DNA of 64,000 nt, taken from NCBI RefSeq assembly GCF_024171405.1, contig NZ_JALJZT010000002.1, forward strand, positions 1 through 64,000. The letters are read 5' to 3'. Every line of letters starts with the position of its first letter. Positions within the stretch are counted from its first letter, which is position 1. Source of the stretch: Qipengyuania citrea (GTDB taxonomy: Bacteria > Pseudomonadota > Alphaproteobacteria > Sphingomonadales > Sphingomonadaceae). The notes beneath the pieces were generated by a model. It saw nothing but the letters and a program-made list of their open reading frames with translations, had not been told where the DNA came from and made no database searches. Both the position numbers and the translations under genes were made by a program. Positions 35,436-53,267 of the stretch are shown here, piece after piece.

Positions 35436-35669
35436 GGGGTTCCTGTTCGTTCGAATGAGAGTTGCGCGCGCCATAGCAGAGCGCGGGCCGAGGGCAAGGG
35501 AGCGGTCACGTTGGAAGCGGAGGGCCACGTGGCGCATGGGCTGTCAGCCCGATTGCCGTAGCGGTCCCACAATGGCGCAAATAGACAATACGGATTGCCA
35601 CGGAGAGTTAACGGAGACTATGATCCGGTTAACCCGCGCATCTTGCATGAAGCACAAGAACAACGTCGC

Positions 35670-37082
35670 ATGGTCATCCATACCCCCCGGGAAGAGAAGG
35701 GCGGAGCGAAGAACGTGTATCTTGAGAATGTCTCCCACGCGGTTCGCCGCCCGGCGATGGAAGGTCGCCGTATTCAGCTGTATCTGCTGATGCTGCTGGT
35801 CGATGCCCTGATCCTGCTTGGCAGTTTCGTGGCCGCCGGAGGCTTTTATCGCAATCAGTGGCCGCATGAACTCGCCATTGCGATGGGCTGGGCTTTCCTG
35901 CCGATCTTCCTGGTCATTGCAGTGCATCAACGGTGTTATTCGATCCGCGCGCTCGACGAAGCGCGCTACGCGATCGGACAGGTTGGCCTCGCACTGGTGG
36001 TGTCAGCCATGTTGTGTACGGTGATGATCTTCTACGCCAAGGCTGCGACCGAATTCTCGCGCGTCATGCTCTCGCTCGCGCTGGTTCTCGCCTTTGCCGG
36101 CATGGCCTTGTTCCGGATCGGCATGCATTTCAGCCTGCGCCAGGCCTACGGTCCGAGCGTGAGTTCGGTACTGGTGGTCATGGATGGCGGGCCAAAGGTG
36201 ACCATTCGTGGTGCGCAGGTCGTTCATGCCGAGGATTTCGACATCTCCGGCGCGCATGCTTCACCCGACAGTCTCGATCGCATTGGCCGGATGATGCGCG
36301 GCATGGATCGTGTCGTCGTCAGTTGCGCGGCCGACCAGCGCCCGAAATGGGCGAGCGTCATGCGCGGGGCGGGCGTGCGCGGTGAGGTTATCTCCACCGC
36401 CTTGCAGGAACTTGGCGCAATCGCGCTGGAGCGCGAGGGCGGCCAGTCCTTCCTGGTTGTCTCGACCGGTCCCCTGGCGCTTCATGCCCGCATCTTCAAG
36501 CGGGTCATGGATCTGGCGATCACCGTGCCGGCGTTGATCCTGCTCAGTCCGCTGATGGCGCTGGTAGCTGTGCTGATCAAGCTTGAGGACGGGGGGCCGA
36601 TCTTCTTCGTCCAGCAGCGCATGGGCGCGCATAATTGCCTGTTCGACATGCTCAAGTTTCGCTCGATGCGCGTAGAAAAGGGCGACTGCAAGGGCGCGCG
36701 CTCGACCTCGCGCGAAGACGATCGTGTGACGCGGATCGGGGCCATCATTCGCAAGACGTCGATCGACGAACTGCCGCAGCTCATCAATGTCCTGCGTTCG
36801 GAAATGAGCGTGGTCGGGCCGCGTCCGCATGCATTGGGGTCGCAGGCGGGCAAAAAGCTCTTCTGGGAAGTCGATACCGATTATTGGCAGCGGCACGCGC
36901 TCAAGCCGGGTCTTACCGGCCTGGCCCAGGTTCGCGGGCACCGCGGCGCGACCGAAACCGAAGGTCATCTAAAGGACCGGCTCCAGGCGGATCTGGAGTA
37001 CATTCGCAACTGGTCGGTCTTGCGTGACATCAAAATCATATTCGCGACGGCCCGGGTCCTGGTGCACCCGAATGCATATTGA
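35670..37082 (+). CDS. polyprenyl-phosphate sugar phosphotransferase (initiating glycosyltransferase)
   Basis: First gene of the exopolysaccharide region, about 470 residues. Four or five N-terminal transmembrane helices (from YLLMLLVDALILLGSFVAA), a middle domain, then a C-terminal bacterial sugar transferase domain (about 280-470) with RVMDLAITVPALILLSPLMA, GPIFFVQQRMG, LKFRSMRVEK and VGPRPHAL. Such WbaP/GumD-like enzymes move sugar-1-phosphate from a UDP-sugar to undecaprenyl phosphate and thereby start repeat-unit assembly. The start is uncertain: ATG at 35670 or a GTG at 35715. Two GTTAAC words flank the upstream region. Confidence 0.9.
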   Translation: MVIHTPREEKGGAKNVYLENVSHAVRRPAMEGRRIQLYLLMLLVDALILLGSFVAAGGFYRNQWPHELAIAMGWAFLPIFLVIAVHQRCYSIRALDEARYAIGQVGLALVVSAMLCTVMIFYAKAATEFSRVMLSLALVLAFAGMALFRIGMHFSLRQAYGPSVSSVLVVMDGGPKVTIRGAQVVHAEDFDISGAHASPDSLDRIGRMMRGMDRVVVSCAADQRPKWASVMRGAGVRGEVISTALQELGAIALEREGGQSFLVVSTGPLALHARIFKRVMDLAITVPALILLSPLMALVAVLIKLEDGGPIFFVQQRMGAHNCLFDMLKFRSMRVEKGDCKGARSTSREDDRVTRIGAIIRKTSIDELPQLINVLRSEMSVVGPRPHALGSQAGKKLFWEVDTDYWQRHALKPGLTGLAQVRGHRGATETEGHLKDRLQADLEYIRNWSVLRDIKIIFATARVLVHPNAY

Positions 37083-37542: not shown

Positions 37543-38052
37543 CTGCATCTGGGGCTGAGAGCTTGGCTAAAAGATCAGTTTGGTCGGGCACAATCCGTGC
37601 GGAATTGACTGTCAACTGAAGTCGAACCAGTCTGCGGGGGTTCCTCTGGTTTCTCTAGCTGGAGCCGGTTTGTGATACCGCTCCGCTGCCGGACATGGCG
37701 CAATTCGCAAGCGATCAATGCAGGATTGGTCGGCCTTGGGCGGCAACCGTTGAGCTTGGCGGTTAACCCAGCAGAGTGTCCGCAGCGGGCGCATACTTTT
37801 CATGCGAAGCTTTGACGTCTTGTCAAAAAGTGGTTGGGTGCGGCCTTTCCTAAAAGGGCGGGCCACAGTTCGCTGTTGCCGCTTGTCCCGCGTCCTTACC
37901 TTAGACTGGGTCTAACGGTCAGATATGGTCTTGGAACATTCATTCCAACGCGCTAGCAGCCTTGGTTAACCGCACACTCGGGCGGGCCAAGGCGGTGGGC
38001 TCAACCTGGCCCAAGATCACTCTTCGAGACCAAGGTAGGCTTGAACTTGCCC
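37543..38052. promoter_or_regulatory. 510 bp gene-free leader of the glycosyltransferase operon
   Basis: No credible gene on either strand; a minus-strand frame at 37612-37866 is Arg/Pro-rich with no ribosome binding site. The stretch presumably carries the promoter for the operon beginning at 38053. Visible words are CGGTTAACCC (37760-37769), GGTTAACC (37964-37971) and the inverted repeat TTGGAA-N6-TTCCAA (37931-37948). No promoter hexamers could be assigned with confidence. Confidence 0.5.
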
Positions 38053-38868
38053 ATGCGAGAATCTCCACAAGTGCAAGACGGGCAGTTCCCCAGTGAACCC
38101 TTGGTTTCCGTGGTGGTGCCGATGCATAACTCGGCGGCGCATATCGTCGAAACCATCCGGTCGGTGCTGGATCAAACCCATGCCAATCTGGAGGTCATCG
38201 CTGTCGACGATGCTTCGTCCGACGCCACTGTCGCGATCGTCGAGGGGATGGCGGATCGCCGCATCAAGATAGTGCGGATGGAAACGAATGGCGGAGCGGG
38301 ACGTGCGCGGAATGCGGGGATCGATGCCGCGTCCGGCGATTATCTCGCGCTACTCGATTCAGATGACCGCTGGTATCCGGACAAGCTTGAGCAACAGCTG
38401 CGCTTCATGGACCGGACCGGCTCGGCTGTGTGCTATACGCGTTACGATCTGATCGATGCAGAAAGCGAACAGATCGGTCGGAGTGGGCGGCTTGCCGCAA
38501 GCGTTACCTACGAACAGCTATTGCGGCACTGCATAATTCGCACTTCGAGCCTGCTGGTCGATCGGCGGGCGCTAGCTCAACCGGTTCACTTTCCCGAAAT
38601 CCGCAAGCGGCAGGATTTCGTTTTCTTCCTGCGTTTGCTCAAACAGGTGCCCAAAGCCGATTTGCTCGACGAAGTCACATGCAGCTATCGCCTCCATAGC
38701 GGCACGGTCTCTTCGAATAAAATTCGCGTTATACCGTTCCAGTGGAACGTCTATCGTACGCAAGAGCAGCTTCCGCTGGGCAAGTCGATCAGCCTGATGA
38801 TCGGTTGGTTTTTCAACGCTGGATTCGTCAACGCGCGGCGTTTTGCGCAATGGGTGGAAAGCAAGTAG
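38053..38868 (+). CDS. glycosyltransferase family 2 protein
   Basis: Cytoplasmic GT-A fold enzyme of 271 residues. N-terminal PLVSVVVPMHNSAAHIVETI, nucleotide-binding DDASSDATV, the DSDDRW metal-binding motif near residue 103 (LLDSDDRWYPDKL) and the EIRKRQDFVFFL segment are family features. It probably adds a sugar to the lipid-linked repeat unit; the sugar is not predictable. First gene of a run 38053-43086 with 7 bp or less between genes (sulfotransferase, Wzx, sulfotransferase, sulfotransferase). A TTG at 38041 is an alternative start. Confidence 0.9.
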   Translation: MRESPQVQDGQFPSEPLVSVVVPMHNSAAHIVETIRSVLDQTHANLEVIAVDDASSDATVAIVEGMADRRIKIVRMETNGGAGRARNAGIDAASGDYLALLDSDDRWYPDKLEQQLRFMDRTGSAVCYTRYDLIDAESEQIGRSGRLAASVTYEQLLRHCIIRTSSLLVDRRALAQPVHFPEIRKRQDFVFFLRLLKQVPKADLLDEVTCSYRLHSGTVSSNKIRVIPFQWNVYRTQEQLPLGKSISLMIGWFFNAGFVNARRFAQWVESK

Positions 38869-38875
38869 CCCTCCA

Positions 38876-39790
38876 ATGAGCGAGACGCCTCGACATATTG
38901 CGGTCGTTGCATTGCGCCGTTCCGGTACTACCGCATTGTGGAACCTGTTCCGGCAAGATGCGCGCTACACGTGCTATGACGAACCGTTCAGCCATTTGCT
39001 GCATGACCTTCCGGCCGACAACGTCAAACGCACCCGAGCGGAATTCATTGCATTGTACAATCGGGATCCCGATCGCTTTCGGTCTCTTTACGCGCCGATA
39101 CCGAGAGGCGAGGAGACCGTTCGCGGCCTATCGGAAAAGCAGGTCGAGTATCTCGAGTACTTTCTCGAAGACGGACCCACGGCGTTCGATGTGACGCGCT
39201 GCATGGGCAAAATCCCTGCGATTCACGCGATCATTCCCGACGCCGTACTGGTTCATCTCTACCGCCATCCTGTCGCATTTGCGAGTTCCCATCTGCTCCC
39301 CTCCGACCGGTTCGATCCCCTGGGTCTGCGCAAGCGCCGCAACCGCTCTACAGCTTTGACGCGGCCCGGCCGGTTCAACGGCTGGGGGATGGAAGAGCTC
39401 CTTCGCACCAAATGGATCGATACGACGAACACGCTCTTTGCTGAGGTGGGGGTGCAACTTCCTCCCAAGAGCGCAAGGGTTCCTGCGGCGCAGCGCCTTC
39501 TCGGGGGTTGGCTGGGGGCATATCGACTGGCGGAGCGCGAGGGGCGCGCCCTTTATGGAAGCCGCTTTGTCTCGCTGTCTTTCGAGGATGTCTGCCGTGA
39601 TGCCGCTCGCAACGTCGCGACGATACGAAGCTTGGCGGGCGCCCCGGGCGAGGCGCTTGATGTCAGTAAGATCCGTCCCGCTTCCGTTGGAATATCGCCG
39701 ACCGACCCTCGGTGGATCGCGATGGCCCGCGCTGCAGGATTCACCGCCGAAGAGCGCGAGCAGTTTTTCGGCGCCGGCGTCGACAATTGA
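38876..39790 (+). CDS. sulfotransferase family protein 1
   Basis: Protein of 304 residues with the two PAPS-binding elements of sulfotransferases: the 5'-phosphosulfate loop VVALRRSGTTALWN (residues 10-22) and the 3'-phosphate segment AVLVHLYRHPVAFASSH (about 122-138). These cytoplasmic enzymes move sulfate from PAPS to a hydroxyl, here probably on the exopolysaccharide repeat unit. Its TGA overlaps the ATG of the flippase (TGATG) and it starts 7 bp after the glycosyltransferase. The acceptor sugar is unknown. Confidence 0.8.
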   Translation: MSETPRHIAVVALRRSGTTALWNLFRQDARYTCYDEPFSHLLHDLPADNVKRTRAEFIALYNRDPDRFRSLYAPIPRGEETVRGLSEKQVEYLEYFLEDGPTAFDVTRCMGKIPAIHAIIPDAVLVHLYRHPVAFASSHLLPSDRFDPLGLRKRRNRSTALTRPGRFNGWGMEELLRTKWIDTTNTLFAEVGVQLPPKSARVPAAQRLLGGWLGAYRLAEREGRALYGSRFVSLSFEDVCRDAARNVATIRSLAGAPGEALDVSKIRPASVGISPTDPRWIAMARAAGFTAEEREQFFGAGVDN

Positions 39791-41133
39791 TGGCGGCTAA
39801 CAGCAACCGACGATTGGCGGGGCGCGGAGCCATTTCAATCGCTATCCGGTTTCTCTCCGCAGGGCTCGGCTTTGCGCTGGTCTTCGCCATGGCCCGCTGG
39901 ATGCCGACCGATGAGTTCGGCCATTTCGGCTATGCCTTCTCGCTTGCCACGGCATTGTCGGTCATGCTCGATTTCGGACAATGCAGGCTCATCCTGAGGT
40001 CCTTGTCGACATATAGCGAACGCGGCCGGACGGACTTGATGAGCGCAGTGCTGCGTTTCTCGCTGATGGTTTCGGTTGTCGGGATCCTGGCGAGCGTTCT
40101 CGTTATTCTTCTGTGGTCCTCACTTTCCCATGCCCACCCGTCGATCATACCCGCTGCGGCGCTAACCGCCGGCATGATACTGGCTGACTTCCAGGCAAAT
40201 CTGCTGCGGGGTCTCGGCAATCTGGTTAGGTCGCTGGTACCGAAAGAGATTGTCTGGAGACCGCTCGCGATGAGCCTGATGGCGTTGGCGGGCGGCGGCT
40301 TGACCATCGCTACCGATGCGACCACCGCGTTATGGTTTCTCGCGATAACCCTTTTGGTGCTTAACGCATTGCAGTTGCTGTTCATCGTCCGACCTCGCTG
40401 GCGACGCGCTCTTGCGCAGATCGCCGCAGCGGAGCGGGCCGACACCACACCCGACGAAACGCTGGATGCTGCAAAGTCCATGTGGCGCAAAAGCTCGGTC
40501 CGCCTTTGGCTCGCCACGGCCATGAACGCGTCCATCACACCTCTCAGCGTGGTAGTGGTTGGGCAGTTCATTCCTCCGGCGGAAACAGGTGCGTTCTTCG
40601 CAGCGGTCCGCGTTGCAACCATCATTGCTTTCCCATTGCAGGGGCTCAACCTGCTGACCGCACCGATGCTTGCGCGTAACTACGCGGCGAACAATCTTGC
40701 GCAACTCCAGCGCGTTGCCAGTTTTACTGCAATCGCTTCGACAGCGATGGCATTGCTGGGTGCCGTCATCCTGGGCTTTTTCGGAGCGCAACTGCTTGAT
40801 TTGCTCAACCCCAGCTTCTCGACCTCGGCAACTGCGCTATTGGTGATTATGGCCGGGTTCGTCATTGCAGCGATTTGTGGATCGAGTGGGCAATTGATGA
40901 ATATGACCGGCCATGACCGCGAGTTTCTCAAAATATTGGCAACCTTCAATATCGTCGGCTTCGCGGTCTTGTTGCTCCTCACCAGGGAATTTGGTGCCAT
41001 CGGCGCGGCATGGGGACTGCTCGTCGTCAAGGCCGGATGGAATATTGCCGTCGTCATCTGGGCTCGCCGCAACCTTGGTATCGACCCCTCGATCCTGGGC
41101 CCGATTTTCGTTCCAAAGGCAGTCGTGAAATGA
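39790..41133 (+). CDS. Wzx-type oligosaccharide flippase
   Basis: Polytopic membrane protein of 447 residues with about 12 hydrophobic helices, of the MATE/MVF-like polysaccharide transporter superfamily (ISIAIRFLSAGLGFALVFAM at the N-terminus; the family's ARWMPTDEFGHFGYAFSLAT block; GQLMNMTGHDREFLKI near the C-terminus). It would flip the undecaprenyl-linked repeat unit across the inner membrane. Both ends overlap sulfotransferase genes (TGATG upstream, ATGA downstream), so the three are translationally coupled. Confidence 0.88.
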   Translation: MAANSNRRLAGRGAISIAIRFLSAGLGFALVFAMARWMPTDEFGHFGYAFSLATALSVMLDFGQCRLILRSLSTYSERGRTDLMSAVLRFSLMVSVVGILASVLVILLWSSLSHAHPSIIPAAALTAGMILADFQANLLRGLGNLVRSLVPKEIVWRPLAMSLMALAGGGLTIATDATTALWFLAITLLVLNALQLLFIVRPRWRRALAQIAAAERADTTPDETLDAAKSMWRKSSVRLWLATAMNASITPLSVVVVGQFIPPAETGAFFAAVRVATIIAFPLQGLNLLTAPMLARNYAANNLAQLQRVASFTAIASTAMALLGAVILGFFGAQLLDLLNPSFSTSATALLVIMAGFVIAAICGSSGQLMNMTGHDREFLKILATFNIVGFAVLLLLTREFGAIGAAWGLLVVKAGWNIAVVIWARRNLGIDPSILGPIFVPKAVVK

Positions 41134-42116
41134 TGTCTCCGACGTTCTTTATTGTTGGTGCCCAGAAGGCCGGGACCACGAGCTTGCACGCGATGCTTGC
41201 GCGGCACGAGCAGGTCTTCATGTCGGATCCGAAGGAACCCGGATATTTCATTCGGGGCTTCGACGATCCAGAGCGATGGCAAACGCTTTATCGGCCCGAC
41301 AAGCACGGTCGCATTCAGCCGCTGTCCGAAGTCGATCTGGGCGTGTTCAACGCGGATGACTATGCTGCGCTGTTTTCCAGTGCGGAAGCGCAACGGGCGC
41401 AGCAACGCGGAGAAGCCTCGACACCCTATCTGCCGTCGCCGCACGCAGCAGATCGCATCAAGGCTACGGTACCCGGCGCGAAGATCATCATTGCTTTGCG
41501 TGATCCCGTCCCGCGTGCTTACTCGGCCTGGGGTTACAATTCATCGCGCGGGCGGGAATCGGCGGCCAGTTTCGAGCAGGCCATCGCTGAGGAACTGGCA
41601 GGTAAGCGCGACCATTTCATTTATGGATGGCGTTATCTCTATTCGGGTCTTTTCTCTCGGCATGTCGAGCGATACCTCGACCGCTTCGGGCGGGAGAACG
41701 TCCTACTCCTGAGCTTCGACAAGCTGAAGGAAGATGGGCAGGGCGTTTTCGATACGATGTGCGATTTTCTCGAGGTTTCCCGGCAGACCGTGAATGCCGG
41801 ACGGCAGGAGAACGTAACGGTGCGCCATGCCAATCCCGTGATCGAGGGAATTCGCAATTCCTTCAATCGTCCGGGAGCCATCAAATCGCTGATCAAGCCT
41901 TTCCTGCCACGCGGACTTCGCACCAAAGTGCGGAGAGGGGTGACGACTTCCCTTGACCGTTATGGTGAACGTCCGAAGCCGATGACACAGTCCGTCCGAC
42001 AGGAGCTGTCCCAATATTATGCCGGGGATCTCGCGAAGCTTGCCGAGATGGTGGACTTCGATATCTCGCACTGGGGCAAGGCGCAAAGTGGGCCAGGGGG
42101 TGCAACGCATGGCTGA
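41130..42116 (+). CDS. sulfotransferase domain protein 2 (heparan sulfotransferase-like)
   Basis: Protein of 328 residues. The PAPS loop FFIVGAQKAGTTSLHAML (residues 6-23, Lys13) and the HEQVFMSDPKEPGYF block are typical of the Sulfotransfer_1 branch that includes heparan and glycan sulfotransferases; the 3'-phosphate segment is IIIALRDPVPRAYSAW (about 120-135). It is predicted to sulfate a sugar of the polysaccharide. The start codon overlaps the flippase stop, a second ATG follows directly, and its end overlaps the next sulfotransferase by 8 bp. Confidence 0.88.
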   Translation: MMSPTFFIVGAQKAGTTSLHAMLARHEQVFMSDPKEPGYFIRGFDDPERWQTLYRPDKHGRIQPLSEVDLGVFNADDYAALFSSAEAQRAQQRGEASTPYLPSPHAADRIKATVPGAKIIIALRDPVPRAYSAWGYNSSRGRESAASFEQAIAEELAGKRDHFIYGWRYLYSGLFSRHVERYLDRFGRENVLLLSFDKLKEDGQGVFDTMCDFLEVSRQTVNAGRQENVTVRHANPVIEGIRNSFNRPGAIKSLIKPFLPRGLRTKVRRGVTTSLDRYGERPKPMTQSVRQELSQYYAGDLAKLAEMVDFDISHWGKAQSGPGGATHG

Positions 42117-43086
42117 TGGTGTCACGCCGATCTACATTGCCGGACGCGCCCATTCCGGTTCGACGATCCTGACCGTAATTCTCAATGGCCACCCCCAGAT
42201 ACAGGGGTGCGGCGAGGTCCTTGATGCGCTTGCGCGTGGCCCCCATGAGGAATGCTCGTGTGGCGCGAAAATTCGCGAGTGCCCGCAATGGTCGCAGGTG
42301 TTCGGCGCATACCGCGTTCGCACCGGTCGCGACCTGGAAGAAGACATTCCCAAGCTTTATGAATTGACGGATATCCGCCAGTTCGGCTCTGCATTGCGTA
42401 GCAAGCCGGAGGTGCCGGACGACAAATGGTCATTCTATGCGCAGGCAACGCGCGACCTGAACGACACGATTGCCGACGTTTTCGATGTGCCGGCCTTCGT
42501 CGACAGCCACAAGGAATATACCCGCGGCCTGATGATGTTGCGCTCGGATCCCTCGGCGAAAGTCATTCATATCTACCGCGAGCCGGACATCACCATCACG
42601 TCGCATTACTATCGTCTGGGTGCTGGCAGCCCGGTTAAATTCATGAAGCGGCTCTATCGACCCGGTCTGATGACGTTTCCGTTTCTGATGGTCATCGCAT
42701 TGGGCTGGTCGGTAGGAATGATCGCCGCGATCTTGACTGCCCGGGCCTATCCGGACCGGGTGCTCCATCTGTCGCATGACGATTTCTCTGCAAATCCCGT
42801 GCGCGAGCTCGAGCGCATCGGCGCCTTTCTGGACATCGACCTTTCCGTCCTCGTCGACACGATCAGGAACGGCCGGTACTTTGCGATCGAGCACGTGATA
42901 GGCGGCAACGAATTCAAACACGAAGGCCGTATCACCTTCGATCCGCGTACCAAGGGGCGTCGCAAGGCCCCGTGGTATTACCGCGCGGCAGCCTGGCTGT
43001 TCGCCTGGCCCGGCGCATTGGCGCGGCGGTTCTTCATTCCCGCACCTGACTATGCCCTCTCCGATAAACGGGCTGATCCCTCCTAA
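42109..43086 (+). CDS. sulfotransferase family protein 3
   Basis: Protein of 325 residues of the Sulfotransfer_3 type: YIAGRAHSGSTILTVILNG (residues 9-27), a Cys-rich block ECSCGAKIRECPQW around residues 45-60 seen in that branch, and the 3'-phosphate segment VIHIYREPDITITSHYY (about 152-168). A hydrophobic stretch near residues 187-210 (MTFPFLMVIALGWSVGMIAA) may attach it to the membrane. Last gene of the 38053-43086 run. Acceptor unknown; its sequence differs enough from the other sulfotransferases to suggest a different acceptor position. Confidence 0.82.
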   Translation: MADGVTPIYIAGRAHSGSTILTVILNGHPQIQGCGEVLDALARGPHEECSCGAKIRECPQWSQVFGAYRVRTGRDLEEDIPKLYELTDIRQFGSALRSKPEVPDDKWSFYAQATRDLNDTIADVFDVPAFVDSHKEYTRGLMMLRSDPSAKVIHIYREPDITITSHYYRLGAGSPVKFMKRLYRPGLMTFPFLMVIALGWSVGMIAAILTARAYPDRVLHLSHDDFSANPVRELERIGAFLDIDLSVLVDTIRNGRYFAIEHVIGGNEFKHEGRITFDPRTKGRRKAPWYYRAAAWLFAWPGALARRFFIPAPDYALSDKRADPS

Positions 43087-43164
43087 GCCGACCGGGTAAC
43101 GCTCCTCCGCTGTAGGCTGGAGCCATGATCTGTCTCGGCGGGTCTGTCTGTTGGAGCAGCAGGA

Positions 43165-44883
43165 TCACAAACCCGGAGCATCGACCATCCGCCCGATGGT
43201 GTGGCTCGCCTTGATCGCCGCTGTATCGATTTTACGGGCTCTTCTCTCGACATAGCTAAGGGTTTCGAGACTGGCGCCGTTAAGTGTGATGTTGTTGAAA
43301 TCGGCACCAACCAGACCGCCGAAACGCATCAGATACGGCGCTTTCCGGGTCTCCTCGTTCCACGTCCAATCGATATTGTGCATCACGATGTCGCTGACGT
43401 TGAAGGGCGTGTTCCACAAGGTCGCGCCGGCAGGCATGTCTCGTGCCATCAGTCCATCGAGCTGGATTGCGCTAGCGCTCTTTTGTGTCCCGAACACGGT
43501 AAATGAGGCGGCGGGAGACCCGGTATGCGTTATCTTGAGCCCTCGTATAGTGGCGGCTCGCTTGCCGGCCAGTTTGAATACCTTTGCTTGGACATCCTCA
43601 TTACCCAGCTTTTCCAATGCGCCGGAAATGACAAGGTTGGTAACCTCCGTAGGTTCGGGCAAGTCGGCGCGTAGCCAGACGATGCTGTCCGTGACGCGAC
43701 CGGGGATCGGATTTGCCGACAGGTCTCGAACAACACAATTGCGCAACGAACCACCGCTGATCACGACCATTGCCCCGTGGGCATAGCCCGAAAGAGTAAC
43801 GTTTTCGACGAGTAGGTCGGGGTTGCGATCTGCGTAGATGAGATGGTCGACATCGCTATTGGCCAAACGACAGTCCCGAATGGTGACCCCGGGCGCGCGG
43901 TTGGCGACGATCGCGCTTCGAACCGTGTCGTGAATGTACACGCGCTCGATCATGGTCGCACGCGGTGCCTGGTAGGCGCCGTCATTGTCTCCTTGTCCGA
44001 TGTTTATGCCGCCCTGACGCATCAGCTGGCGGCGAAAAGACTTTGGGCCTTCCGCAACCGAGGATTCGTCTGCAAAATAGTTGCGGTACCGGGTCTTGTG
44101 ATCGAAATGCTCCTGAGCGGATCCGTCATACTCGAAATCAGCGAAAGCAGCGGTTTCGATCCCCGATTTGGTCGAAAGACCGCGGAAAGAGTCTTCGGCC
44201 GGTGAGCTGGGATTCGGCCTGTTGAGCAGCTCGATGAAACTCTGGTCGTAGGGAACGGTCTTCAGCCCCGACCGTGTGCCTTCACCAAAGGGGGCAAGGC
44301 CGCGGAGACGCTGATTGTCTCCGACCCAATTGGCCGTGTGCAGATAGAATCCGTCGAGCACAGCATCGCGCGCACCGCTATCCAGCATCGACTGCAAAGC
44401 CAGCGTGTTGTCATGTTCGGGGCCGGTCTGAGCACCGAACCAGCTGGCATAGGCTATGCCAGGCAGGCGGAAATTACCTCCGGTTTCCCAGAGAGTTTGT
44501 TGCCGTTTTGCGCTATCCATCTGTTGGACGCCGCGAACCCATCGGACATTCGTCAAATCGAAGATATGCTGCCCCGGCGGCGCATCGATATCCTGATCGA
44601 AGTCGATTATCACCCCGTCATCGGGGCGCAGGATCCCGCCCGCGAACCGCACCTTGGCCGCTACGCGGATCGATCGCGATACGGCCCACAGACCGCTGGT
44701 GATGGTCACGATCGTATCGGCTGGAGCCGTCGCAAGCTCATCGGTCAGATCACCGGCAGTCTGCCCGCCGATGCCCAGCTTACCCAGGAAGAGTGTTCCG
44801 GAGGTCACCGCCAGTGCGGCCAGCGAACCGGTTAGAACTTCGCGACGACCAAATCCGGTTCTGATGGCTGCTTCACCAAGCAT
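43165..44883 (-). CDS. Tat-exported protein, probable right-handed parallel beta-helix
   Basis: Protein of 572 residues, the only minus-strand gene of the exopolysaccharide locus. The N-terminus has a twin-arginine signal (FGRREVLTGSLAALAVTSGT, Arg13-Arg14), so it is probably exported folded. The middle and C-terminal parts contain repeated short strands with Asn/Asp turns (VTIRDCRLANSDVDHLIYAD, DLLVENVTLSGYAHGAMVVI, ATIRGLKITHTG), as in pectate-lyase-like beta-helices. Such proteins are lyases, hydrolases or epimerases acting on polysaccharides, or phage-like spikes. No catalytic motif could be assigned. It may trim or modify the product of the locus. Confidence 0.6.
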   Translation of the reverse strand: MLGEAAIRTGFGRREVLTGSLAALAVTSGTLFLGKLGIGGQTAGDLTDELATAPADTIVTITSGLWAVSRSIRVAAKVRFAGGILRPDDGVIIDFDQDIDAPPGQHIFDLTNVRWVRGVQQMDSAKRQQTLWETGGNFRLPGIAYASWFGAQTGPEHDNTLALQSMLDSGARDAVLDGFYLHTANWVGDNQRLRGLAPFGEGTRSGLKTVPYDQSFIELLNRPNPSSPAEDSFRGLSTKSGIETAAFADFEYDGSAQEHFDHKTRYRNYFADESSVAEGPKSFRRQLMRQGGINIGQGDNDGAYQAPRATMIERVYIHDTVRSAIVANRAPGVTIRDCRLANSDVDHLIYADRNPDLLVENVTLSGYAHGAMVVISGGSLRNCVVRDLSANPIPGRVTDSIVWLRADLPEPTEVTNLVISGALEKLGNEDVQAKVFKLAGKRAATIRGLKITHTGSPAASFTVFGTQKSASAIQLDGLMARDMPAGATLWNTPFNVSDIVMHNIDWTWNEETRKAPYLMRFGGLVGADFNNITLNGASLETLSYVERRARKIDTAAIKASHTIGRMVDAPGL

Positions 44884-44999
44884 GCAGTTGGGTTCCTTAG
44901 TTGCGGGATGGGTCGTGGGTCTCCTGAATTAGGCACTCGGCCGCCTGTACGGAAGCTTTACCGGCACGGTAGCTGAATTATCCGCCTTGCTTCGCTGTC

Positions 45000-45926
45000 A
45001 TGACGTCCATATTCACCGCCTTCACGCAGGCTGGCCCTGTAACTCGCACCGAATTTCCGGAGTGTTCCCTGACCGTGTCGAAGCATTTTGTACAAAGCTC
45101 TAGCCTGCGCAAAACCCTGATTGCTGCCTATCGCGCATATGCTCGTGCCCAAGTCTGGCGTCGGGGGCCGCGGATTTTGGTGAACAGTATCCCCAAGGCG
45201 GGGACCCACCTGCTCACTGCCGAGCTCGAGCGACTGGCCGATCTCCAGAATTCCCGCCTTCATCTCGATATCGATCGGCTCGGTATGCCGGGGACGAGCA
45301 ACGATCTCGGATTTCCGATGGTGAACCTTCCGAAGACCGAGCGCGCTATTTCCACGGTCAGGCCCGGACAGATGTTTTCCGCGCACCTCTATTGGTCGAA
45401 GGAACTGGAGGACATTCTGTCGGGGGCAGAGATATGCAGTATCTTCATCGCCCGAGACCCGCGTGACATCGTTCTGTCGCGCCTGCACTACGCGATGGGG
45501 CTGCGCAGGCATCGGTTGCATCCCTACCTTGCCGAGGTGCTTGAAAACGACAAGGACCGGCTTCGCTCCCTGATCGTCGGCCGTAACGCCGATCCGTTTA
45601 TTCGTCCCCTGCGGGCGACCCTGCAAGGCTATCTTCCGTGGCTCGACCGTCCGGGTACGCTCGCGGTCCGTTTCGAGGATCTGGTGGGGCAACGAGGCGG
45701 AGGCACCGCCGAAAGGAAGCGTGACGCCTTGCGCAGCATCGTCGATCTCTGCGGCATCGATGGCAGCAAGGTGGACGAAATGGCGGGGATGGGAACCGGC
45801 CCCACACCTACAATGCGAAAAGGCAAGGCGGGTGGCTGGCGCGACGAGATGCCGGCGGAACTCGTCGAGCTATGCGATGCCGAAATGGGCGATCTCATCG
45901 AGGCCTATGGCTACGCTCGAACTTGA
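45000..45926 (+). CDS. sulfotransferase domain protein 4
   Basis: Protein of 308 residues. The PAPS loop is RILVNSIPKAGTHLLTAEL (residues 58-76, with the Pro-Lys-Ala-Gly-Thr core at 65-69) and the 3'-phosphate segment is CSIFIARDPRDIVLSRLHYA (about 146-165), both typical of the cytosolic sulfotransferase branch. It stands alone between the divergent beta-helix gene (start 116 bp away) and the polymerase gene. The first 30 residues are unlike the family, so an internal start is possible. Acceptor unknown. Confidence 0.82.
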   Translation: MTSIFTAFTQAGPVTRTEFPECSLTVSKHFVQSSSLRKTLIAAYRAYARAQVWRRGPRILVNSIPKAGTHLLTAELERLADLQNSRLHLDIDRLGMPGTSNDLGFPMVNLPKTERAISTVRPGQMFSAHLYWSKELEDILSGAEICSIFIARDPRDIVLSRLHYAMGLRRHRLHPYLAEVLENDKDRLRSLIVGRNADPFIRPLRATLQGYLPWLDRPGTLAVRFEDLVGQRGGGTAERKRDALRSIVDLCGIDGSKVDEMAGMGTGPTPTMRKGKAGGWRDEMPAELVELCDAEMGDLIEAYGYART

Positions 45927-46313: not shown

Positions 46314-47795
46314 ATGTCATCGACCGTCAGCGTGGATCGATCCGGATCACGTCCGGCAGGGAGGCGATCAAGAAAGACCTCCAAGAAAAAAGCGGCGTCA
46401 TCAAAGGGACTCCGCGGGTTTTTCCAGGACCGACGCTTGCACCTCGCGATCTACTTCGCCTTCATCCTGCTCGTTGGTCTGACCGGCGGTGGTTCGCGGC
46501 CCGACATATTGTCGCTTCTGCTGCTGCGACCGCTGGCTGCCCTGTTCTTGATCTATATCGTCTGGCGGATTTCGGCCGACGAATTGAAAGCGGTCCGTTT
46601 CCCGTTGCTGTTCATCGGCTCGCTGATGGTCATTGCCTTGTTGCAACTCGTCCCCCTACCGCCGGTGATCTGGAGTTCGCTGCCCGGCCGGGAAGGTGTC
46701 GCGCAACTCGACGAGCTTTTTGGAATGCAAGACGTGTGGCGTCCGCTCAGTCTCGAGCCGAGCCGAACGTGGAATGCGTTCTTTTCGATGTTCGTGCCGC
46801 TGGTAGCGGTGGGTTTCGTCGGCTTGCTATGGAACAGAGAGCGTCGCTGGATACTGCCTCCGATTTTGGCGATGGGCGTGCTCAGCATGGTGGTCGGCTA
46901 TTTGCAGGCGCTCGGAGCCGACAGTTTGTACTTCTACCGCGTAACACACGGCCATCACCCGGTCGGCTTGTTCGCGAACAAGAATCATCAGGCGGTGCTG
47001 CTGAACTGGCTCTTGCTGACAGTTTGCTACATGATCACGCGGATCGACCTGCGCGACCGGCGAGCCAGCCTCCGTCTCGCATCGGGTCTCGCGCTCGTGT
47101 TCCTCATCTATCCGCTGCTGTTCGTCACCGGGTCACGGGCAGGCCTCTTGCTGTGCGCGCCAGTAAGCGTGGTCTGTGCGGTAATGCTTTGGCAGGCGCC
47201 GGCGCTCAATCGTGCATGGCAGGGATCAAGTCGGCGCGTGAGGCTGGCCATTACCGGATTGGGTGGCAGCGTACTGGCGGCCTTGGCCATGGTCTTCGGC
47301 TATCTGGCCATCACCGAACGGCAGACCGCGCTTACCCGCCTGTTCGAATCCGATCCGGCGGATGAGCTGCGCTGGATCTACCTGCCCAAGATTTTCGAGA
47401 TGATGCGGGACTATTGGCTCGAGGGTATCGGGTTTGGCGCGTTCGAAAGCGTTTTCTACGGATACGAGAACGTCGAAAATCTGAGCACAAGTTATCTAAA
47501 CCAGGCGCATTTCGAGCCGCTGCAATATGTTATTGAAACCGGGCTGGCGGGATTGCTTCTGCTCGTTGCGGCTCTGGTGTGGGTTGTCCGGCGGCTACTG
47601 CGCCTTTGGCACGCTGGCGACGGCAAGGCGCGCATCCTTGCCGTCTACCTTTGCGGGGCGCTCGGGGTGTGGCTAATCGCCGGGCTGGTTGACTATCCCA
47701 CGAGAACCCCCTTGGGGCAGTTGGTATTCGCAATCTTGACCGGCTTTTTGGCGGTCTCTAGCATTGATCTCGAAAGGCATCGGAAAATTGGGTAG
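46314..47795 (+). CDS. O-antigen ligase/Wzy-type polymerase family membrane protein
   Basis: Polytopic protein of 493 residues with about 11 transmembrane helices after a basic cytoplasmic N-terminus of about 40 residues. The Wzy_C signature appears as GLFANKNHQAVLLNWLLL near residue 220, followed by the large periplasmic loop with GIGFGAFESVFYGYENVENL. In a Wzx/Wzy system it would polymerise repeat units in the periplasm. The next gene (GumB-like) starts 56 bp downstream. Confidence 0.88.
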   Translation: MSSTVSVDRSGSRPAGRRSRKTSKKKAASSKGLRGFFQDRRLHLAIYFAFILLVGLTGGGSRPDILSLLLLRPLAALFLIYIVWRISADELKAVRFPLLFIGSLMVIALLQLVPLPPVIWSSLPGREGVAQLDELFGMQDVWRPLSLEPSRTWNAFFSMFVPLVAVGFVGLLWNRERRWILPPILAMGVLSMVVGYLQALGADSLYFYRVTHGHHPVGLFANKNHQAVLLNWLLLTVCYMITRIDLRDRRASLRLASGLALVFLIYPLLFVTGSRAGLLLCAPVSVVCAVMLWQAPALNRAWQGSSRRVRLAITGLGGSVLAALAMVFGYLAITERQTALTRLFESDPADELRWIYLPKIFEMMRDYWLEGIGFGAFESVFYGYENVENLSTSYLNQAHFEPLQYVIETGLAGLLLLVAALVWVVRRLLRLWHAGDGKARILAVYLCGALGVWLIAGLVDYPTRTPLGQLVFAILTGFLAVSSIDLERHRKIG

Positions 47796-47850
47796 GGCGC
47801 GATCGACCTCTTTTGCCTGGGGCAATTTCTCGATGAACTTGAGGACCTTT

Positions 47851-48564
47851 ATGAATCCGAAATTTGTTTTGGCTGCGGCGGTTTTCGCCGTGACAGGGTG
47901 CTCGAGCGGCCCTCCGGAGTTGGGGCTCGCCCCTACGGTGGAGTACGTCCAGGCGGGCGCGATGCCTCAGCCCGAGAAGGTCGGCGCCGACGGCAGCTTT
48001 CTCTATGCTTTGGGACCGCTCGACAAGGTCGAAGTAGAGGTCGTCGGGATGCCCGATTTGACTCGCCAGTTGTCCGTGGATGCACAGGGTTTCCTCTCGG
48101 TTCCGCTGGCAGGCGCCGTGAAGGCAACCGGCCTTACTCCCGTCGAACTGGCGGACATCCTCGAGGAGAGGATGCGACAGAACTATCTCAGGGATCCCGA
48201 CGTGGTGGTGAACCTGGTTGAATCGACGAGCAACGCGATAACGCTCGATGGGCAGGTCAGGCGCCCCGGAATATATCCGGTTTATCGCGACCAGACACTG
48301 ACCCAGGCGATTGCTGTTGCTGGCGGTGAGAACGACTTTGCGAGGGTCACGACCGTGATCGTTTTTCGCGAGGTAAGTGGTCAGAAGTATGTCGGGCTAT
48401 ATGATGTGAGGGCGATCAGGCGCGGAAACTACGCCGATCCAAGCGTCTATCCCGGCGATAGGGTGGTGGTTGACGAATCCCAGACCCGGCGATTCCTGGA
48501 CACGATCCAAGGCGTTACCAACTTGCTGACCACTCCGCTCGTCTTGCTTTCCCGCACCGCTTGA
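47851..48564 (+). CDS. polysaccharide export lipoprotein (Wza/GumB-like)
   Basis: Outer membrane export protein of about 237 residues. A lipobox ends in VTGCSS (Cys17), so the mature protein is a lipoprotein. The polysaccharide export domain (YALGPLDKVEVEVVGMPDL, then PLAGAVKATGLTP) is followed by a SLBB domain (QVRRPGIYPVYRDQTLTQAI). Wza/GumB form the outer membrane channel with the co-polymerase. The ATG at 47851 is chosen because GAGGA lies 6 bp before it; an ATG at 47833 is possible. Confidence 0.88.
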   Translation: MNPKFVLAAAVFAVTGCSSGPPELGLAPTVEYVQAGAMPQPEKVGADGSFLYALGPLDKVEVEVVGMPDLTRQLSVDAQGFLSVPLAGAVKATGLTPVELADILEERMRQNYLRDPDVVVNLVESTSNAITLDGQVRRPGIYPVYRDQTLTQAIAVAGGENDFARVTTVIVFREVSGQKYVGLYDVRAIRRGNYADPSVYPGDRVVVDESQTRRFLDTIQGVTNLLTTPLVLLSRTA

Positions 48565-48598: not shown

Positions 48599-50770
48599 GT
48601 GACAACCCAGGATAATATGGCGACTGCAGCATCATCGGGACCGTATGAGGCGGCCGAGTTTGAAGGCCCCGGCAATGGGCCGGAGAAACCCTCGATCTTC
48701 CACTACATCTGGCGGGTTTTCTGGACGAACCGACTGATAGTCGGTGCGATCATAATCGCCGCGGTCGCCATAGCGCTGGTGCTGACTCTGCTCGCAACGC
48801 CGCAATATACCTCGACCGCGCGTATCCAGATCAACAGGATCGAAGCGAACGTATCGGACGTCGAGGGAGTCGAGCCTGCGGGGGACGGACTCAATTACGA
48901 CGAGTTCTATCGCACACAGTACGCGCTTCTCGAAAGCGAGGCTCTGGCCGAACGCGTCGCGCGTAAGCTGAACCTACCGGCCGACGAGGCCTTCATCGAC
49001 GCGTTCAATATCCCGGACGATGGGGAAATCCGGTCCGGCAACCAGCGGCTTGCCATGGAGCGGACATCGCTGCTCCTCCTTGAACTTATTTCCATCGAAC
49101 CGGTTGTCGGATCGAGCCTCGCCGATGTGTCCTTCACGAGCCCGTCTCCGGAGCTGTCGCGGAGAATCGCTTCGACCTGGATCAGCGAATTCGTTGCGGC
49201 TTCGATGGAGCGGAGGTTTGCCGCTACCGACGATGCACGCAGATTTCTCGAGCAGCAGCTCGCAGAATTGCGCTCGCGCCTGGAAGATTCCGAGCGATCC
49301 TTCGTTACCTATTCTTCGCAGAGCGGAATCGTATCGCTCTCGAACAGTGAAGCGACCACCGGGAATGATCGTACGCTCAAGGCGTCCGACCTGGCGAGCA
49401 TGAACGACGCGTTGAACAGCGCGCGTGCCGATCGCATTGCTGCGGAAAGTGCCTTGCAGGCCGGTGTTCAGCAGCAAGGTAACACAGTGGCGAATACGCT
49501 GCGTGCCAAGCGTGCGGAGCTTGCAGCGCAGAAGGCCAACCTTCTGACGCAATTCGAGCCTGGTTACCCCCGGGTCGAGGCCCTGACCAACGAGATTGCT
49601 GAGCTCGATCGTTCGATCGCCGATGCGCTCGGTACCGGGCAGGCCGACTTGCGGCGCAACTTGATGCAGGCGCAACAGCGCGAGCAAGCTTTGCAGGCAC
49701 AAGTCGAAGGGCTGCGCTCCATCTATAACGATGAACAGCGCGCCACTGTTCAGTACAACATATTGAAGCGCGACGTCGACACCAACCGCGAACTCTACAA
49801 CAGCCTGCTTCAGCGCTATAAGGAGATCGGTGTTGCAGGGGCTGCAGCGAGCAATGTGCAACTTGTCGATCCGCCGCGTATCCCTCGCGAGCCTTCCAGT
49901 CCGAATCTGCCGCTCAACCTTGCGCTAGGCTTTCTGCTGGGTATCGGCGTTTCGGGTGCAGTCCTGTTCGCTCGCGAAGAGATGGATCGAAGCGTCCGGG
50001 ATCCCCAGGATGTGAGGCAGAAGCTGAACATCGCCCTGCTGGGTGTCATTCCGAAAACCGATGCGGAAGACCCCCTGGACGAGCTTGCCGACGCCAAGAG
50101 TGCCATTTCGGAAGCCTATCTGTCGGCCGGCGTGCTGCTTGATATGTCGACTTCCGAAGGTTTCCCGAAAACCCTGATGCTTACGAGCACGGTGCCCAGT
50201 GAAGGTAAGACCAGTTCGTCTTATGCGCTGGCCCACCGGCTTGCGCGCAGTGGCCGCAAGACCATTTTGGTCGACTTGGACCTTCGCAATCCGTCGGTGG
50301 CCAAGAGGCTGGGCGTGCCGAACGAGCGTGGGGTGGTCGAATTCCTGACCGGCCAGGATGCTCTTGGTACTTTGATCCAGCGGGACGTTGGCCCCAATTT
50401 CGACATCCTGAGCGTTGGCGCGATCCCGCCCAATCCCGGTCAGCTCATCGCGGGTCCCAGGATCGGCGAGTTGCTGACGCAACTGCGTAGTGCCTACGAT
50501 TTCGTGGTGATCGATGCCCCGCCGGTGCTCGGGATCGCGGACGCTCCGGTCCTGGGAAGCCAGGTCGAAGGCATCGTATATATCATCGAGGCAAACCGTG
50601 CCGGTGTTCGCCAGCTGTCGAGCGCGATCGAGCGCATGCGGTCCATGGGTGGTCGGATCCTGGGCGGCATCCTTACCAAGGTCGATGAACGCAATTCCGA
50701 ATACGGCTACGGTTCGGAATATGGCTACGGCTATGGCTATGGCCAGAGCTCGGACAACGAAAAGCTATGA
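48599..50770 (+). CDS. GumC/Wzc-type co-polymerase with tyrosine-kinase domain
   Basis: Inner membrane protein of 723 residues: N-terminal Wzz domain with a transmembrane helix near residue 40 and a second one near residue 445, a long coiled-coil periplasmic region (about 180-400), then a cytoplasmic BY-kinase domain. The Walker A loop is STVPSEGKTSSS (Lys537), Walker A' LVDLDLRNP and Walker B FVVIDAPP. The tail has six Tyr in NSEYGYGSEYGYGYGYGQ (Tyr702-Tyr714), the usual autophosphorylation cluster. It would control chain length and link inner and outer membrane steps. GTG start. Confidence 0.93.
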   Translation: MTTQDNMATAASSGPYEAAEFEGPGNGPEKPSIFHYIWRVFWTNRLIVGAIIIAAVAIALVLTLLATPQYTSTARIQINRIEANVSDVEGVEPAGDGLNYDEFYRTQYALLESEALAERVARKLNLPADEAFIDAFNIPDDGEIRSGNQRLAMERTSLLLLELISIEPVVGSSLADVSFTSPSPELSRRIASTWISEFVAASMERRFAATDDARRFLEQQLAELRSRLEDSERSFVTYSSQSGIVSLSNSEATTGNDRTLKASDLASMNDALNSARADRIAAESALQAGVQQQGNTVANTLRAKRAELAAQKANLLTQFEPGYPRVEALTNEIAELDRSIADALGTGQADLRRNLMQAQQREQALQAQVEGLRSIYNDEQRATVQYNILKRDVDTNRELYNSLLQRYKEIGVAGAAASNVQLVDPPRIPREPSSPNLPLNLALGFLLGIGVSGAVLFAREEMDRSVRDPQDVRQKLNIALLGVIPKTDAEDPLDELADAKSAISEAYLSAGVLLDMSTSEGFPKTLMLTSTVPSEGKTSSSYALAHRLARSGRKTILVDLDLRNPSVAKRLGVPNERGVVEFLTGQDALGTLIQRDVGPNFDILSVGAIPPNPGQLIAGPRIGELLTQLRSAYDFVVIDAPPVLGIADAPVLGSQVEGIVYIIEANRAGVRQLSSAIERMRSMGGRILGGILTKVDERNSEYGYGSEYGYGYGYGQSSDNEKL

Positions 50771-51987
50771 GCCAGCGGGGATTTGCGGCCCCGGCCATGA
50801 TCGGGAAGATCGTCGTAAGCATAGCCACATTGGTGTGTGCGGGGGCTGGGTTCGTCAACGCGGCCTCCGAAACCGGCAATCTGTCGCTGTCGATGTCCCG
50901 TACTCTGGACGCGACGATAAATTCCGAGGTCCGAAGTCGGGCGCTCGACCAGAATTTTCGTCTGGCTGCATCGGCGGAAGCAGAGAACGGTAACACGGGT
51001 TTCCCCGAAAGCTCCGATATGGTCCTCGCAGAAGCGCAATCGCTTCGCGCGCTTCGCCCCCTCGATCCTGTCCCTGTGAGGGTTTGGGCGGTCGGCGGGA
51101 TCGCCCAAACCGATCCCGAGCGGGCATCGAATATTCTCGTGTCCGCCAGTACCATGAATAAGCGCGACGCGGTCGCGAACATGTGGTTGGTTCACAACTT
51201 CGCACGCGGCGAAAGAGTGGACGCAATGATCACCTTCTTCGACCAGGGGCTTCGCACGAGCAGGCAATTGCGTTCGACGGCAATTGCGCCATTTGTCGGC
51301 TTGCTCGCTTTGCGCGAGGGACGCGATCGCATTGGGCAGCTAATCCGCGCCCATCCCGATTGGGAAGAGGATTTCTGGACCGAGTTCGCACGCAATCAGA
51401 TTGCGCTGCAGAATTCGGGCTCGTTCTTCGAGGAAACGGGAATCGATTTCTCAGAGCAACCAAGCGAGCGCAAGGCCGAGATCTATCGCAATCTCAGACG
51501 GTTGGGTTATTTCGAAAGCATGTTCGCCTTAGCCGCCAAGGATCGGCCCCTGGGGGAACAAAGCGAACGGATTCCGCCCGAATCGCTCGCATCGGTAACC
51601 AGTCCGGTTGGATGGAGATTGCAATCATCGGGCCTGGTTTCGAGCTTCTACGATGATACCCGCGAAGCATTGATCGTCGATGCTCAACCGGGCGCGCTTG
51701 GCGCGTTTGCGGAGCTCGTAACGCCAAAGAAATCCGGCGGCCAACTGGAGGTCGCCTTGGAGCGTCCGGCCCCCGAAGGTGGGCGTTTGCGGGTATCGGC
51801 TACATGCGCAGGTGATCAGAGCAATATGCTGGCTCAGCTTGAGCTTCGGCCGGGGGAAACCCTTGCCAGCACACCGCTCGCCGAGGATAGCGATTGTGCC
51901 TTTCTGCTCCTGAGCGCTTCAATCGCTGTCGAGCGGGGAAGCCAGGGAGGGGTAGAGCTCGCAATCTCCCGCATCGGCCTGCGGTGA
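50767..51987 (+). CDS. exported protein of unknown function coupled to the co-polymerase
   Basis: Protein of 406 residues. The N-terminus has a signal peptide (GKIVVSIATLVCAGAGFVNA). Residues about 90-220 look helical, repeat-like and TPR-like (SASTMNKRDAVANMWLVHNF), and the C-terminal 150 residues are mostly beta (DTREALIVDAQPGALGAFAE, GGQLEVALERPAPEGGRLRV). No domain or catalytic motif was recognised. Its ATG overlaps the co-polymerase stop (ATGA), so it is probably cotranslated with it and may be a periplasmic accessory of polysaccharide export. Confidence 0.75.
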   Translation: MSQRGFAAPAMIGKIVVSIATLVCAGAGFVNAASETGNLSLSMSRTLDATINSEVRSRALDQNFRLAASAEAENGNTGFPESSDMVLAEAQSLRALRPLDPVPVRVWAVGGIAQTDPERASNILVSASTMNKRDAVANMWLVHNFARGERVDAMITFFDQGLRTSRQLRSTAIAPFVGLLALREGRDRIGQLIRAHPDWEEDFWTEFARNQIALQNSGSFFEETGIDFSEQPSERKAEIYRNLRRLGYFESMFALAAKDRPLGEQSERIPPESLASVTSPVGWRLQSSGLVSSFYDDTREALIVDAQPGALGAFAELVTPKKSGGQLEVALERPAPEGGRLRVSATCAGDQSNMLAQLELRPGETLASTPLAEDSDCAFLLLSASIAVERGSQGGVELAISRIGLR

Positions 51988-52124: not shown

Positions 52125-53267
52125 ATGATGAGCTCAACCACCAAAAAATCCGTTCTGATCTGTGCCAAGGCATTCCCCCCGGTCGTGGGCGGGGTGGAAA
52201 GTTACAGCGAACACACAGCCCAAGCTTACCTTCGATGCGGTGTAACCCCCACGGTGCTGACCAGCTTTCCCGGCGAAAGCGGTTGGACCACTCGCGAATA
52301 CCCGGAAGGTAAAATCGACGTTCTCAACGTCGGTACGGGAAGCCAGCCGAAGGTCCTTGCCAGACTTGCGCGCGCTGCACGGTCGCAAACCCGTGCGAAC
52401 CGATTCACGTTCTGTCATGCGACAACGTGGAGGGCAGGCGTGGCATTGCTGCCATGGGCTCGGACTCCGCGGACCGCAGTGACTGTCCACGGCAGGGAAA
52501 TCCTGATCAATCCGTTTTACCTCCGGCCGGTGCTGCGCAGGGCTTTGCCCCGGTTCGACCTGCTCGCATCGGTTTCGGATTATACTGGCGCCAGGCTGCA
52601 GCAGGAATTTCCCGAACTACAAAATTCCAAGGGCAGGATCGTCTCGTTCAACGGACTTTCGTACAGGCGCGAGGCATGCCTCCACACCCCGTCTTTCGAT
52701 CGCTCGAAGGTCCGAATATATAGCTTCTGCCGCCTGGTAGAGCGTAAGAACCTGCTCAATGCGGTTCGCGCGATTGCATTGCTCAAGGACAAGCGCCTCC
52801 CGGTTCCTTTCGAATACGTGATATCCGGGACGGGCCCTCTTGCCGACGAGATCCGGGCGGCGATCGATCGTCTGGAGCTGCATGACCATGTGCGCATGAC
52901 CGGCTATTTGCCGGATTCCCAGGTTATAGAAAACTTCAAGAACACCGACATCTTCCTTCATCCGCAGGTCGCTGCGGTGTCGGATTTGGACATCGAAGGA
53001 TTCGGCTTGGTGATCGCCGACGCGATGTCATTCGGCGCTGCTGCGGTTGTCGGGAAAGATGGCGGTCCCTCGGACTTCATCGAAGACGATCAAACGGGCC
53101 TGATCGTGGATGGCGGTAGTGTCGAGCAAATTGCTGACGCACTCGAGGGACTTGTCAGCGATGAAAAGTACCGGCAGCGCATCGCGACGCAGGGGCGAGC
53201 ATGGTGTCTCGATAATCTATCCTGGGACAACCATGTGCTCGATATCATGAAGGCACTGGAAGTTTGA
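52125..53267 (+). CDS. glycosyltransferase family 4 protein
   Basis: GT-B fold enzyme of 380 residues. The N-terminal Gly-rich loop (AKAFPPVVGGVESYSEHTAQ) and the C-terminal donor-site E-x7-E region (DLDIEGFGLVIADAMSFGAA) are typical of GT4 retaining transferases. It probably adds a sugar to the lipid-linked unit. The start is an ATG at 52125 with a second ATG directly after. It is separated from the 406-residue gene by 137 bp and ends before a strong terminator. Confidence 0.9.
   Translation: MMSSTTKKSVLICAKAFPPVVGGVESYSEHTAQAYLRCGVTPTVLTSFPGESGWTTREYPEGKIDVLNVGTGSQPKVLARLARAARSQTRANRFTFCHATTWRAGVALLPWARTPRTAVTVHGREILINPFYLRPVLRRALPRFDLLASVSDYTGARLQQEFPELQNSKGRIVSFNGLSYRREACLHTPSFDRSKVRIYSFCRLVERKNLLNAVRAIALLKDKRLPVPFEYVISGTGPLADEIRAAIDRLELHDHVRMTGYLPDSQVIENFKNTDIFLHPQVAAVSDLDIEGFGLVIADAMSFGAAAVVGKDGGPSDFIEDDQTGLIVDGGSVEQIADALEGLVSDEKYRQRIATQGRAWCLDNLSWDNHVLDIMKALEV

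Follow-up and report, generated by a model that had tools for sequence, protein, structure and literature searches.

Four unlike sulfotransferases in a Wzx/Wzy-type polysaccharide locus of Qipengyuania citrea, probably for a sulfated exopolysaccharide

The window analyzed here, 64 kb from the start of contig C2 in the 3.2-Mb genome of Qipengyuania citrea, contains between 35.6 and 53.3 kb a polysaccharide locus in which four genes, designated ST1 to ST4, encode proteins that are by family predicted sulfotransferases dependent on 3'-phosphoadenosine 5'-phosphosulfate (PAPS). Qipengyuania is an alphaproteobacterial genus of the Erythrobacteraceae. It is likely, with a probability of about 0.8, that the locus encodes Wzx/Wzy-dependent synthesis of a sulfated exopolysaccharide and that the lipid-linked repeat unit is sulfated before it is flipped. 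A similar biochemical scheme had been drawn in an earlier sequence-only reading of the window, and it is very likely right in outline.

That reading had called the genes at 38876, 41130, 42109, and 45000 sulfotransferases, and a Pfam hmmscan bears this out: with translations taken from the listed open reading frame starts, which for ST1 to ST3 lie upstream of the starts assumed earlier, every listed Pfam sulfotransferase score exceeded the gathering cut-off. An NCBIfam scan provided no name for any of the four. Non-sulfotransferase P-loop families, which had been named beforehand as the alternative to be checked with hidden Markov models, were ruled out by the Pfam scan, in which none was assigned. 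The two PAPS-binding motifs, the 5'-phosphosulfate loop and the 3'-phosphate segment, are visible in all four proteins and well conserved in aligned relatives. The loop reads ALRRSGTTAL in ST1, GAQKAGTTSL in ST2, GRAHSGSTIL in ST3, and SIPKAGTHLL in ST4; the 3' segment reads YRHPVAFASS, LRDPVPRAYSAW, YREPDITITS, and ARDPRDIVLS, respectively, and the R-x-P pattern previously attributed to it holds as RHP, RDP, REP, and RDP. The four sequences are also as distinct as had been stated, with pairwise identities of 23.2–27.5% in global alignments. Because they share only 23–28% identity, they are not recent duplicates, and each of them may have a separate acceptor position.

It is very improbable that some of these enzymes no longer transfer sulfate or that their genes are decaying. 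ST1 and ST3 do lack the P-loop lysine that ST2 and ST4 have, but the loop letters are identical in the congener orthologs, and the RSG of ST1 conforms to the RXG motif that has been described in NodH, a member of PF13469, although the HSG of ST3 is not an exact fit (PMC11625862). The whole locus, with the same gene order, is present in a second genome of the species (G228, locus L110), and the ratios of non-synonymous to synonymous substitution rates (dN/dS) between the two are well below 1 for all four genes, i.e., 0.089 for ST1, 0.112 for ST2, 0.051 for ST3, and 0.065 for ST4. The corresponding numbers of synonymous and non-synonymous changes are 25/7, 19/7, 18/3, and 10/2, with 41/0 for the Wzc gene. 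All four sulfotransferases are, therefore, under purifying selection.

The genes of the locus are listed below with their positions in the window, their strands, and the E-values of their matches to Pfam (PF) and NCBIfam (TIGR, NF) models and to entries of the Protein Data Bank (PDB); L111 denotes the related locus of G164, a congener of another species, and G054 and G275 are other genomes that hold a relative of ST4.

35595–37082, + strand: priming polyprenyl glycosylphosphotransferase (PGT); PF02397 5.3e-62; TIGR03025 4.4e-90, over cut-off
38041–38868, + strand: glycosyltransferase family 2 (GT2); PF00535 4.3e-38
38876–39790, + strand: sulfotransferase ST1; PF13469 1.9e-10; L111 ortholog 63.7% identical
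39790–41133, + strand: Wzx-like flippase; PF01943 2e-6, just under cut-off; NF041503 (WZX_like) 8e-10, far under cut-off
41130–42116, + strand: sulfotransferase ST2; PF13469 1.9e-16, PF00685 4.3e-14; PDB 3rnl 1e-41, 1t8t 9.4e-11
42109–43086, + strand: sulfotransferase ST3, hydrophobic segment at residues 186–213; PF13469 4.7e-13, PF00685 5.9e-6
43165–44883, − strand: beta-helix-like protein, possibly exported; PF13229 0.001, below cut-off; L111 ortholog 49.1% identical
45000–45926, + strand: sulfotransferase ST4, SULT-like; PF00685 1.1e-7; relatives in G054 (49% identical) and G275 (50% identical)
46314–47795, + strand: Wzy-type polymerase (Wzy_C); PF04932 3.7e-15
47764–48564, + strand: outer-membrane polysaccharide export protein (Wza/GumB-like, Poly_export); PF02563 6.2e-19; the true start probably lies downstream of 47764
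48599–50770, + strand: Wzc/GumC-like co-polymerase with BY-kinase domain; PF02706, PF13807, PF13614; TIGR01007 over cut-off
50767–51987, + strand: 406-residue protein, N-terminal hydrophobic stretch; unmatched in Pfam and NCBIfam
52125–53267, + strand: glycosyltransferase family 4 (GT4); PF00534 5.3e-32

A priming transferase, glycosyltransferases, Wzx, Wzy, a co-polymerase, and an export protein are thus all found together with the sulfotransferases. The initiating transferase, Wzx, Wzy, GumB-like, and GumC-like neighbors named in the sequence-only reading stand, but the GumC-like protein also has a BY-kinase domain, the profile matches of Wzx fall under the cut-offs, and the beta-helix gene had gone unlisted. 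The assignment of Wzx combines these sub-cut-off matches with the many hydrophobic segments in its hydropathy profile and with its conserved position, the gene being kept in L111. GT2, ST1, wzx, ST2, and ST3 follow one another head to tail, with 7 bases between GT2 and ST1, a TGATG junction between ST1 and wzx, an ATGA junction between wzx and ST2, and an 8-base overlap of ST2 and ST3, and such packing implies that ST1 to ST3 are co-expressed with the flippase. At the threshold used, no hydrophobic segment was called in ST1, ST2, or ST4, as is expected of cytoplasmic enzymes. The tight packing and the lack of such segments in these three enzymes favor cytoplasmic sulfation before flipping. The hydrophobic stretch of ST3 lies inside the sulfotransferase domain and is weaker in the congener ortholog; it could hold ST3 at the membrane near a lipid-linked acceptor.

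In the proposed pathway, the priming transferase would place the first sugar onto undecaprenyl phosphate, GT2 and GT4 would extend the repeat unit, and the four cytoplasmic, PAPS-dependent sulfotransferases would sulfate distinct positions of the lipid-linked repeat unit. Wzx would then flip the sulfated unit, Wzy would polymerize the units under the control of Wzc, and the GumB-like protein would export the polymer, which, as judged from the gene content, might be sulfated at up to four positions. The PAPS would be supplied by CysD and CysNC: the search for cysD, cysN, and cysC proposed with the earlier reading was positive, as CysD (NF009214) and the bifunctional CysNC (NF004035) are encoded, both over cut-off, at ~2.651–2.654 Mb of contig C2, which means that PAPS can be made.

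The Wzx/Wzy/Wza/Wzc machinery serves capsules as well as exopolysaccharides, and the same sulfotransferases might, therefore, act on a sulfated capsule or an O-antigen-like surface glycan instead of a released exopolysaccharide. We regard this as rather unlikely because TIGR03025, a model of exopolysaccharide type, scores the priming enzyme over its cut-off. In favor of a capsule, the sulfated polymers with reported structures from Vibrio sp. KMM 8419 (PMC11641403) and Cobetia marina KMM 1449 (PMC11766843) are capsular, and their loci resemble that of the window in being marine proteobacterial polysaccharide loci with sulfotransferases, but they differ from it in using ABC transporters for export and in holding PAPS genes inside the locus. 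Three sulfotransferase genes were named in the Vibrio strain, one of which was assigned to an O-antigen operon (PMC11641403).

In the PDB, ST2 matches 3rnl (1e-41), which is named only Sulfotransferase, while part of ST2 aligns with entries of heparan sulfate 3-O-sulfotransferase 3A1 and N-deacetylase/N-sulfotransferase (NDST) at 9.4e-11 to 2e-7, among them 1t8t (9.4e-11) and 1nst (1.2e-8), and more weakly with 3-O-sulfotransferase 1. ST2 differs from these animal enzymes in being far closer to 3rnl and in its length of 328 residues, which leaves no room for an N-deacetylase domain. A bolder and rather doubtful proposal is that the product is a glycosaminoglycan-like polymer with a short repeat sulfated at up to four positions, that the beta-helix protein trims or remodels it, and that the genus arrives at different sulfation patterns through the exchange of sulfotransferase cassettes between conserved assembly genes. 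This proposal draws on the presence of more sulfotransferases than glycosyltransferases in the locus and on the distant relationship of ST2 to the heparan sulfate 3-O- and N-sulfotransferases. ST4 has a SULT-like layout, with a PKAGTH loop, a histidine in SAHLYW, and an RKGKAGGW element; in weak-scoring PDB alignments, SAHLYW lies opposite KSHLPL of an aryl sulfotransferase and RKGKAGGW opposite RKGMAGDW. The histidine is presumably catalytic, as in SULT enzymes.

Several observations weigh against the pathway as drawn. In the PDB, convincing sequence matches are lacking for ST1 and ST3 and only weak ones exist for ST4, and a single-sequence AlphaFold model of ST1 was too poor for a fold search (pLDDT 35.3). 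CysD and CysNC are encoded outside the polysaccharide locus. Against its four sulfotransferases, the locus has only three identified sugar transferases, counting the priming one; one or more of the sulfotransferases may therefore act elsewhere. ST4 was not found in the stretch of L111 that was read, which suggests that it is not essential to the core module. L112, the closest relative by Wzc after L111, shares the assembly genes but yielded no sulfotransferase over the 20 kb examined, and 62–63 of the 85 Wzc loci surveyed in the genus, as described below, have no sulfotransferase-like gene in range.

It is possible, though not the explanation that we favor, that the operon-coupled ST1 to ST3 alone sulfate the exopolysaccharide, and that ST4 sulfates a glycolipid, a carotenoid, or a small molecule, or is an accessory modification. 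Besides not having been found in L111, where ST1 to ST3 are kept, ST4 matches PF00685 only and has weak PDB matches to aryl and steroid sulfotransferases, and it is uncoupled from the GT2–wzx operon, standing alone beside the divergent beta-helix gene. On the other hand, in G054, G275, and G093 the ST4-like gene adjoins a Wzc/GumB/Wzy locus in which there is also an ST2-like gene, and in G130 it neighbors an ST2-like gene, a few kb from genes resembling those for a priming transferase and Wzy. These neighborhoods tie ST4 to polysaccharide loci. Relatives of ST4 occur in five of 397 genomes of the family, the present one included, and each of the other four has an ST2-like gene no more than 5 kb from the ST4-like one. 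ST2 relatives (E-value threshold 1e-5) occur in 27 of 149 family genomes, again including its own.

The comparison of gene order in relatives, which had been suggested as a check, is consistent with the sulfation of a Wzx/Wzy-dependent exopolysaccharide for the most part: besides the intact locus of G228, L111 holds GT2, ST1, wzx, ST2, ST3, and the beta-helix gene in order, with ST1 to ST3 arranged around wzx and identities of 49–72%, and it departs from the window in the apparent lack of ST4. A GT4 gene lies between ST3 and the beta-helix gene in L111, and Wzy, GumB, and Wzc are also present. At the place taken by ST4 in the window, flanked by Wzy and the beta-helix gene, L111 encodes a 540-residue hydrophobic protein without a Pfam match (L111:7524–9146, + strand). 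G191 has the assembly genes, with no sulfotransferase found along the 20 kb examined. As ST4 was not found in G164 and no sulfotransferase at the assembly genes of G191, the sulfotransferase part looks like a variable module within a conserved frame. The nearest named relative of Wzc is that of Qipengyuania sp. XHP0207, with 56% identity.

How common such modules are was surveyed in the genus, starting from all 85 Wzc matches at E 1e-60, which come from 55 of 60 genomes, and using in-house sequence and profile searches; the window and G228, which represent one species, are counted as two, and contig ends truncate some of the loci. Sulfotransferase-like genes within 9 kb of Wzc were found in 22 of the 85 loci: one gene in 15 loci, two in four, three in two, and four in one, with none in the other 63. 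Three genes were counted for the window and for its conspecific, in both of which ST1 is more than 9 kb away. This recount by distance dropped one flagged protein without a Pfam match (L139:10604–11710), while an earlier count with looser limits, in which the stretches L135 and L139 were off-center, gave 23 of 85. Only part of the flagged proteins were put to Pfam, and a few may be unrelated neighbors (e.g., L213:1457–2764); of the 28 checked, some of which lie outside the 85 loci, 23 scored over a sulfotransferase cut-off, four below, and one was unmatched. The locus with four is L140 of the congener G166, where three proteins over the Pfam cut-off and one below it are encoded beside Wzc. Outside the family but in the same order, locus L167 of G216 encodes four sulfotransferases over the cut-off in 6.3 kb (L167:9828–16065), which are unlike one another, being members of Sulfotransfer_1, _2, and _3. 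L167 resembles the window in this number and in its priming-transferase-like, GumB-like, and GT4-like genes, but its sulfotransferases are different ones, including one Sulfotransfer_2 member, and no match to the Wzc, Wzx, or Wzy of the window was found in the 20 kb read. The earlier view that four sulfotransferases in a bacterial locus are unusual is, therefore, to be qualified: the number is at the top of the range of the genus, not off it.

The accompanying view that sulfated exopolysaccharides are known mostly from algae and marine animals was overstated, since published bacterial cases exist in cyanobacteria and several proteobacteria. The xss (synechan) cluster of Synechocystis sp. PCC 6803 is, like that of the window, a Wzx/Wzy locus in which sulfotransferases of distinct subfamilies lie among glycosyltransferase, wzx, wzy, and co-polymerase genes; it has two sulfotransferases, eight glycosyltransferases, the regulators XssQ/R/S, and an outer-membrane polysaccharide export (OPX) gene elsewhere (PMC8205485), in contrast to the four sulfotransferases, three sugar transferases, OPX gene in the locus, and alphaproteobacterial host of the present case. 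Its authors stated in 2021 that no such genes were known in other bacterial extracellular polysaccharide clusters, while in cyanobacteria they described numerous sulfotransferases within partial clusters for polysaccharides (PMC8205485). The wps-1 cluster of Actinoplanes missouriensis is similar in that it is of Wzx/Wzy/Wzz type and includes sulfotransferases from different families along with a glycoside hydrolase, but it belongs to an actinomycete, has only two sulfotransferases, and plays a role in sporangium formation (PMC13390465). Some recent papers call bacterial sulfated polysaccharides a cyanobacterial specialty (PMC8205485; PMC13390465), whereas marine proteobacterial examples keep appearing (PMC11641403; PMC11766843). 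A 2014 review covers sulfated polymers from Alteromonas infernus and Paracoccus zeaxanthinifaciens (PMC4189415), the latter an alphaproteobacterium, and for Pontiella sulfatireligans three glycosaminoglycan sulfotransferases have been proposed, of which one lies in a putative biosynthesis cluster. Searches of the open-licence PMC literature found no paper describing a bacterial locus with four sulfotransferases. This kind of locus is already known in a few bacteria; what sets this one apart is how many unlike sulfotransferases it has and that its host is an alphaproteobacterium. A compact locus with four unlike sulfotransferases, in a genus where about a quarter of the Wzc loci have one to four, would supply carbohydrate sulfotransferases and be well suited to studying how a sulfation pattern is encoded.

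The beta-helix-like protein, whose gene lies on the minus strand between ST3 and ST4, has an N-terminal RR pair and hydrophobic stretch and perhaps acts on the polysaccharide, possibly as a lyase or hydrolase. Its L111 ortholog also scores just below the PF13229 cut-off (1.1e-5). A PDB sequence search gave no match, the protein was found in none of 384 other genomes sampled in the class, and among the loci compared it was found only in L110 and L111; its single-sequence AlphaFold model was too poor for a fold search (pLDDT 41.5). For the protein at 50767–51987, several congener loci have a relative, often a weak one, located behind Wzc. The listed stretches of the locus have a G+C content of 56–61% versus 62.8% for the whole window, which is suggestive, but no more, of horizontal transfer. 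The flanking genes scanned include those for an isocitrate/isopropylmalate-type dehydrogenase, a Na/H exchanger, alanyl-tRNA synthetase, and RecA, and a UDP-glucose/GDP-mannose dehydrogenase family gene is found at 24128–25294. Elsewhere in the genome there are six further PF13469 matches (G000:C2:388491, 1159688, 1170091, 1276915, and 1501291; C3:66308), in frames of 449–658 residues that are longer than the enzymes of the locus. A PF13469 match occurs somewhere in the genome of 78 of 80 relatives, and many of these matches fall in frames of similar size.

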